From Diprion similis (lineage: Eukaryota; Arthropoda; Insecta; Hymenoptera; Diprionidae), in NCBI RefSeq assembly GCF_021155765.1, contig NC_060107.1:10340501-10404500 (forward strand): DNA of 64,000 bases. Reading direction: 5' to 3'. Positions within the stretch are counted from its first letter, which is position 1. Each line of letters starts with the position of its first letter. The notes below the pieces were generated by a model. That model had not been told where the DNA came from. It ran no database searches and saw only the letters and a program-made list of their open reading frames with translations. Of this stretch, positions 29,201 to 32,200 are shown in pieces. The translations under genes and the position numbers were made by a program.

Positions 29201-32200
29201 TACTATTTTTGTTATTAACTATTACGACAAGATGCACAAGCTACTCAATGTTCCTAATCTAAACATTTTATTTAACCCCATTGTATTTTTCCATGTTTAT
29301 ACATGTTGTTGATTAATTAATTAATCAGTATCCGTGTTGCTAAAACTATACCGTTATAGTCTTACATTACATTTCTGTTCATGAACAATAATAGATTTCA
29401 TCAATAATGAAATACGTCATTCAAATCGTCGACGTCAATTTCATCGTCCGACGGTTGCACATGTCAATAAAAATTTCCCGACAAAATTATCACAAGTATT
29501 TTTGGCTTGAAAGTTAGTTTTGGACTTTTTTTTTTTCCTAAATGTAACTTACGCATACGAGTATTTTTTTTATAGTAAATTCGACAACTTCGTTTTTAGT
29601 TCGGAAATTGTTTACTTTTTTTATCCATACGTTAAAATAGACTATTTTTATATTCAGTGTCTGTATCAATTCAATATTACAAAGTAGCCAGCACATCTGC
29701 CTGAGTTTTTTATACCTACACTTGCGTTATTAGTAGCACTGTTTAAATCTTGATTTTTATAATTCACTGCCTGTTATATTACGATATTTGCTTGTCTGTA
29801 TATTATATAGTCTTGTTTTTTTTCCATCTGAAACTAATTAGAAAATGGTGTAATTTATTTCACTTTAAATATATGTATTAAATAAATTATTCGAAGAGTA
29901 ATAATTATAAAAATTACACCTAAAAAATTCGCAGTTATCGTTGTTTGCAGTAAAAGTGATCCAATGATACTTAATCAGTTACAATTAGCCAACAAAATGA
30001 AAATATTTATTTTTTAGTGTAAAATTGATCTGTGTTTAAAATCAATACTTTTACTCCTACTTGCTCTAAGTATTTTCAATTAGAAATTTCTGACACCACG
30101 GCAACATGACTGACCACTAAACATCTACTTTACTTCTATTTTACCTTGACACCTTATTTTTGTGTCGGAGACGGAGCCACATATTCAATAACTGAATACA
30201 TCAAATTGAATCTAATTAAAATATATGAATAGTGTTATCAGACTGATTGGAAAGTTTTCTGTTCAGATTGCCTGGGAGTGAAAGTATTGCACAGATGTGA
30301 TACAGTTGACTGAATAATAAATTATGCTAATTAACATTGAGCAACGATGGTGTATATCTATGTATTATAAACAAATTTGAATTGAAATAATACATAATTC
30401 ACCGTTATTCTTGGCAGGCGTACCTGCTCAAAGATTAGATGAGAAATAATGAAACAAAAATAGCAGAAGAAACAATAATTGTAACGAGCAACATTGGATT
30501 TAATTTACCTATGCAACTGAATAAATGAACATATATAACTATATTTAATGTAGAATTGTTTTTAAAGCACACGGATAATTAGCATATGATGAAGCAAAAG
30601 GCAAAGAAAAAATAGGAAGAGATAACCATGAATTATTGGAATGGAATTAACTCTTCTAGACAAGATGTAAATTGTTTTGTGTGGTGTCTTCGCAGGGTGG
30701 TGATGGTGGGGACAAGTCAGACTCCACTAAGACTCGCTTCATCATGAAGTCGAACGAGTGGAAGTTCAGGGTAACTTACAGCAGTTTCCTTACTGCTGTT
30801 TTAATTTTTTTGCAGCTTTTGCGAGTGTTTATGGAAGAATGAACTTGTAAATCATTTTTGGGAATAACATTTTATGGAAACGGCGATACATGTATTTAAA
30901 AAAAAAAAAAAAAAAATCTGTTTGTTTCCTAAACGAACTTTTACTGCAGCTTTATTTTACACATAATTATGTATGTACAGCATTTTGTATAACTTTCTGT
31001 TTTGGGGAAACAAAAAATTCATCTGGATAACATCGTGGCATCTATCATACATCTATGGTACAATTTGGTATATTTTTCATATGGTAGTAAACGAAGTTTC
31101 ATCATTAACGCTTACAGTCATATGTTATTACTATCATAATTATAATCACATCATGTTTCATCACATCTTTAGTACATCGTATTACATGTTATATTTGTAT
31201 GTACGTACGTTTGTTTTAACACGTTGGATTACTTTCAAGCTGGGAGATCAACATCCGTGATTATTTTGTTCGTTCCTTCAAATTTGGTCAATTAACACTT
31301 ATAAATGATACATGTGTACACTTTGTCATGCCTTGCATAAAGTTGGTGAACAGAAGCTTGTGGGTGGATGAAATTGGGCAACTCCGATACAACTGATGCA
31401 TTCTTTAATATAAGTGTTCTTGCAAATCAACATATTTCATATGTATTTGCATTTTTATTGAACCTCAAAGTTTTGCCACTGTTGTTAAAGGATGTATCAG
31501 TATATGAAAGGTCATTATTTCATGTATCAAAGCTCCGATAAACATCATTATTTATGTTATTATGCTAATTAGGAAAAAGCCGTTTCCGTATATGTGAAAA
31601 TACCGGGAATCAGCTAGTAAATCAGATATATTTATTTTTTACAGTGTAGTTAAACTTTATTACTGCGTTGTTTCTGTGAATGCGTAATGCTCGATAAGGG
31701 TATTCTGTATTTTTGCATAAGTGTACAGAAAAACGAGACAGGAATTTGTGATCAGCAAATTGGAACACCCGTGCACATTATATTTCAGTCGACGTGATAA
31801 TTGCGAAATAACAGTTTGGAGCATGTGTAATTAATTAAATGTGAACTATTCGAAAAGATACTTTGAAACTTAATATTGAAAAATGTTTTAAAGAATCGAA
31901 TGGAAATTTATTTGAAATCAAAGCGTCACAAACTTCATTATCATTATCTTCGAATAACAACCCGAGGTTATCAAGAATTAACTGACCGTAATGTAGTATT
32001 GCAAAACCATGACGCAGTCGATGTCGCTTCGAAGGGGGTCATTTTATTAATTTAGCTCGTGTAAACAAAATTGTGATAGTAAAACGTGTACGTATAAATG
32101 TAGTAATATTGGGTTGTGAGAATTTGTCAGAACCCCCTCAGTGATATTGGATTATATACGCAAGCAATATTTAATATGTATTATCGAACAATTTGTGAAT

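Follow-up and report, generated by a model that had tools for sequence, protein, structure and literature searches.

A putative cassette exon that would lengthen the regulatory flexible loop of PRPP synthetase in Diprion similis

The PRPP synthetase (PRPS) gene of Diprion similis contains, in the intron lying between the codons for K102 and S103, a 75-nt open segment (30696..30770, + strand) that is very likely a genuine exon, as judged from its splice and codon scores. Its use is likely alternative. The reading preferred here, held with slightly more confidence than doubt, is that this segment is a splice-controlled cassette of a class I PRPS, which would lengthen the regulatory flexible (RF) loop by 25 residues and weaken feedback by ADP. 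We infer both that the cassette is transcribed and that the longer loop has a kinetic effect. PRPP, made by PRPS, is a building block of nucleotides; nucleotide synthesis has a chokepoint at this enzyme, and human disease results when its feedback is lost.

The PRPS gene and its genomic setting

The window, i.e., the whole stretch of 64,000 nucleotides that was analysed, corresponds to C3:10340501-10404500, and the genome searched comprises 269,008,206 bases in 60 contigs. The coding pieces of PRPS were located by tblastn with human PRPS1 as query, their borders being then read from the junctions. All lie on the + strand: a first coding exon starting from the ATG (26284..26405, donor ATG|gtaact), a second one whose last codon is that of K102 (27887..28070, donor AAG|gtagga), an exon opening with the codon of S103 (35042..35265), a further exon at 35352..35685 and a final one including the stop (35773..35865), for which the translation was also used. 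Without 30696-30770, these exons encode 318 aa. The sequence-only reading had placed the insertion precisely at the K102/S103 boundary of a PRPS otherwise 318 aa long, and both the junctions and the translation agree with it.

The 318-aa form is identical to human PRPS1 at 283/318 positions, the human sequence used for the identity counts being consistent with PDB alignments. Without the cassette, the RF loop (residues 94-108) is the same as in human at 15/15 positions, and identity extends to 22/22 of the ligand, allosteric and filament positions compared, the roles of these RF-loop, allosteric and filament residues being taken from passages of PMC10227994 and PMC13252144. In the 343-aa form, which includes the insert, Pfam recognizes the N- and C-terminal ribose-phosphate pyrophosphokinase domains (PF13793, 3.9e-47; PF14572, 4.1e-45), and the PF13793 match stops at the border between K102 and the insert, at profile position 100 of 117. 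By its domains and conserved residues, the gene is assigned to class I PRPS (EC 2.7.6.1).

In the whole genome, PF13793 gives three matches at two loci only. These are the PRPS gene and a PRPS-associated-protein-like (PAP-like) gene detected by the profile search near the start of its contig (C7:~6777-7073, - strand), whose frame crosses the RF-loop region uninterrupted by any intron. An orthologue of the fungal Prs5 was rejected as PF13793 is found only at the PRPS and PAP-like loci. Upstream of PRPS, the window also holds an RFWD3-like E3 ligase frame (19170-20690, + strand; PF23419, 8.7e-138) as well as part of a ubiquitin-conjugating enzyme (23240-23542, - strand; PF00179, 1.1e-13). Among the chromosome-end stretches, four of six (both ends of C1 and C3) consist of long arrays of TTAGG, the telomere repeat in most arthropods; of the C4 end stretches, one is all N and the other is mixed.

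Splice signals and coding character of the cassette

The K102/S103 intron spans 6,971 nt, within which the open segment is bounded by ag and gt and leaves introns of 2,625 and 4,271 nt on either side. Its borders read ...gtggtgtcttcgcag | GGTGGTGATGG...TTCAGG | gtaacttac. When the sequence was re-read, everything claimed earlier from the letters proved exact: the coordinates and borders, the 25 open codons, and a phase of 0 at either end. The intron hexamer of the donor, gtaact, is that of the PRPS exon 1 donor, and a C at +5 makes the site weak. GC content reaches 0.52 in the cassette vs 0.30 in the remaining intron. The 25 encoded residues include three Ser and two Thr for a net charge of +2, and are laid out as a flexible half of G, D, S, K and T and then a half that is basic and hydrophobic. 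Inclusion puts an Arg directly before S103, as in E. coli, and it is a guess that this residue has importance.

Splice sites were scored with generic matrices for donors and acceptors, which makes the values rough. Among the 280 AGs of the intron, the cassette acceptor ranks second. Its donor ranks third among 398 GTs when the first ten bases of the intron are omitted, and fourth when the donor at 28080 is included; a GT at 30706, within the cassette, scores slightly above it. When pairs of sites 30-249 nt apart are considered in any frame, the cassette is the top pair of the intron, and the sole other pair within 2 bits, with a score lower by 0.8 bit, encloses 235 nt and would disrupt the reading frame.

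The composition of the segment had been described as coding-like, and a codon table trained on PRPS and the neighbouring RFWD3-like frame bears this out: the cassette scores 19.0 bits in frame, against -1.3 and -2.6 in the other frames. With training that omits PRPS, it reaches 0.72 bit per codon, as against 0.09 to 0.61 for the five remaining PRPS exons. None of the 2,569 open 75-nt windows taken from both strands of the rest of the intron reaches the cassette (17.9 vs a maximum of 15.4). This score could nevertheless reflect GC-rich sequence generally.

Two counter-possibilities to an alternative cassette bear directly on these scores. The first is a pseudo-exon, i.e., a segment that is open by chance, carries good splice signals and is spliced rarely or never. 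Such segments do arise in simulated sequence, as a phase-0 candidate of 45-150 nt that is open and has an equally good splice sum turns up in 14 of 300 Markov introns, but none of the 300 also equals the codon score, nor does any open window of the real intron score as high, and a GC content of 0.52 within an intron at 0.30 points the same way. A genomic control was assembled from C1-C4 as 20 stretches of 10 kb, read on both strands (400 kb). In it, the splice sum is reached by 39 candidates, and the splice sum together with the codon score by three rows at two places; some of the matching rows could be true exons. When candidates are ranked by total score only, with a codon table trained with two PRPS exons one base off frame, 78 control rows in 400 kb equal the cassette, mostly longer candidates, and this control counts against the cassette if length is disregarded. 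If the length is restricted to 60-90 nt, the splice sum is attained by 25 candidates, of which 23 lie inside a 148-bp satellite, and 0/25 have a GC content of at least 0.52. This satellite fills two of the C4 stretches throughout (10 kb each, from 3,000,001 and 5,000,001), with 91% and 95% matches. Because both the Markov and the genomic controls rarely match the cassette, a chance pseudo-exon is unlikely, and we consider it the least probable of the readings.

The second counter-possibility is that the cassette is present in most or all mRNAs, and would thus be a fixed, lineage-specific insertion of the RF loop comparable to that of the fungal Prs5. An acceptor among the best two of the intron and an exon-like codon score are what such an exon would display, and an optional exon and a fixed one look alike in sequence alone. 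On the other side, the protein is complete without the cassette and its RF loop then fully matches the human one, the +5 base weakens the donor, and long introns flank the segment. Moreover, RF-loop insertions among opisthokont homologues are described as exclusive to Holomycota Prs5 in the available text of PMC12238573. A fixed insertion is accordingly given a low probability, and alternative use of the cassette is retained as the likely case.

The origin of the cassette was also considered. Searches by DNA (221 bases) and by protein found a single copy in the genome, which ruled out a repeat or transposon origin. No similar partner exon was found in PRPS, since tblastn of 26284-36000 returned, besides the cassette, only a match at the beginning of the S103 exon and rows with E values of at least 1.4. 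The 25 residues of the insert had no match among PDB chains up to E = 10, six peptide strings had none in the literature, and the patterns had none in prokaryote and viral contigs, a result with little bearing on insects. No animal RF-loop cassette exon appeared among the literature matches listed, which cover their sources in part, and insect annotations may already include such an isoform.

Just 3' of the cassette donor lies a perfect 8-bp inverted repeat with a 6-nt loop (30778..30799, + strand). Hairpins of this type occur at two places in the K102/S103 intron, and the 61-nt stretch containing this one is equalled or surpassed in its fold by 26 of 200 shuffles (z -1.03). As no Rfam family passes the cut-off in 26000-36000 and the fold of the hairpin is unremarkable, a structured RNA at the cassette was rejected; that the hairpin acts in splicing is a guess. 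TGCATG and GCATG are absent from the 300-nt flanks of the cassette, where splicing-factor words form no clear cluster.

Extensions of the RF loop after K102

Human PRPS2 gives rise by alternative splicing to two mRNAs differing by nine nucleotides, as stated in passages of PMC9221600, and PRPS2-long carries three more residues following K102, according to the accessible text of PMC10227994. In the PDB, entries 8yi9 and 8ypy (isoform 2 of PRPS2, 321 aa) have VGE after K102 and read KKDKVGESRAPIS. Entry 8yq0, also of 321 aa and labelled PRPS1, has the same KKDKVGESRAPIS with VGE after K102. These 321-aa chains imply that the site accepts insertions. PRPS2-long (NM_001039091, NP_001034180, 321 aa) thus resembles the form proposed here in that its RF loop is extended right after K102, but it gains three residues by means of nine nucleotides, whereas the extension of Diprion similis would be a separate 75-nt exon adding 25 residues and is known from genome sequence alone.

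A shorter extension may exist in Diprion similis as well. Past K102, the sequence reads GTAGGAGAT|GTGAGC, which provides a second in-frame donor nine bases beyond the K102 donor. Its use (GAT|gtgagc, at 28080) would extend exon 2 by 9 nt (28071..28079, + strand), encoding VGD. In the control stretches, donors equal or better occur at 662 of 399,200 positions, so the probability of a chance hit at one position is about 0.002. Its position at +9, as in human, is a strong hint that VGD, if this putative donor is used, would be the counterpart of the human VGE. Extra in-frame sequence exactly after K102 is therefore possible twice, from 28071-28079 and from 30696-30770, and the four predicted forms (318, 321, 343 and 346 aa) are all open to the normal stop. 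One may tentatively extend the proposal to an ancient tuning by splicing at K102/S103, in which the donor yielding VGE or VGD would predate the split of insects and vertebrates, the 25-residue cassette would act as a feedback switch and the four lengths would mix in hexamers; we regard this broader scheme as possible but doubtful.

Longer insertions in the same loop are known from fungi. Yeast Prs5 has 113 extra RF-loop residues, called NHR5-1, in the part of PMC9221600 that covers it. From the PRPS2 splice form and yeast Prs5, the site is thus known for insertions, spliced ones included. The fungal Prs5 with NHR5-1 shares with the present case a long insertion within the RF loop of a PRPS homologue, but it is a separate paralogue with a fixed insertion, whereas the exon considered here would be omissible and lies inside the catalytic gene. 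PRPSAP1/2 are insertion-bearing relatives that participate in the PRPS complex, as reported in the available portion of PMC12238573; their insertion falls in the catalytic flexible loop, unlike the RF-loop insertion proposed here. In E. coli PRPS, the tip of this loop is longer by one Ala in the passages given by PMC10227994, this extra residue being single, fixed and independent of splicing.

Predicted effects on feedback and nucleotide supply

The sequence-only reading had placed the RF loop by the ATP site and given it a part in allosteric ADP/phosphate control; a role in ATP binding and ADP control is backed by the accessible portions of PMC10227994 and PMC9232217. In human PRPS2, the loop runs from Y94 to S108 between the active and the allosteric sites; the allosteric ADP is touched by K100 and by R104, the latter binding the beta-phosphate of this inhibitor, while K99 contacts the phosphate in the ATP site/active site, and the K99A variant has lower activity and loses ADP inhibition (PMC10227994, in the text available). 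The E. coli loop adopts two positions, over allosteric site 1 or in the ATP site, and R102 takes part in nucleotide binding at allosteric site 2 (PMC9232217, likewise in part). The insert site at K102/S103 parts K99/K100 from R104.

When the cassette is skipped, the standard 318-aa enzyme would be made. When it is included, as would occur in part of the transcripts, the tip of the RF loop, between K99/K100 and R104, would receive first a flexible Gly/Asp/Ser stretch and then one that is basic and hydrophobic. The longer loop would uncouple the K99/K100 half from the R104 half, and, with the two halves uncoupled, inhibition by ADP would therefore be weaker; activation by phosphate would probably be weakened too. 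Long subunits as well as mixed hexamers would be expected to show this weakened feedback, perhaps together with some loss of activity. Indeed, a disturbed RF loop may cost activity because K99A is also less active, as reported in the text at hand of PMC10227994. As a long loop would couple allosteric ADP poorly, PRPP synthesis would be less restrained in the cells that include the cassette.

The cassette may also be alternative while its main effect lies elsewhere than in ADP feedback. It could provide a docking or modification site, or produce a weaker subunit that alters hexamers or filaments, in the manner of the insertion-bearing yeast Prs subunits that link PRPP synthesis with signalling. 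The three Ser, the two Thr and the charge of +2 of the insert would suit such a role, as would the conserved filament residues. In yeast, phosphorylation is predicted at nine sites of NHR5-1 in the RF loop, and a subunit with NHRs in its catalytic loop is inactive yet still required (both from passages of PMC9221600). However, a short insert adjoining the two residues that contact ADP could hardly leave feedback unaffected, and this explanation is considered rather unlikely. Weakened ADP feedback through a spliced RF-loop cassette is thus kept as the preferred reading.

A spliced extension of the RF loop by three residues is already known from human PRPS2; what is new here, within the literature searched and the portions of it available, is a putative 25-residue cassette exon. 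If the proposal is true, the ligand-contacting halves of the RF loop would be parted by a naturally occurring exon, which would offer a ready test of the relay of ADP inhibition, and an animal would alter PRPP feedback via splicing, beyond gene duplication. Because the exon would lengthen the ADP-sensing loop at the place where humans make a longer form, splicing may be one way in which Diprion similis tunes its nucleotide supply.
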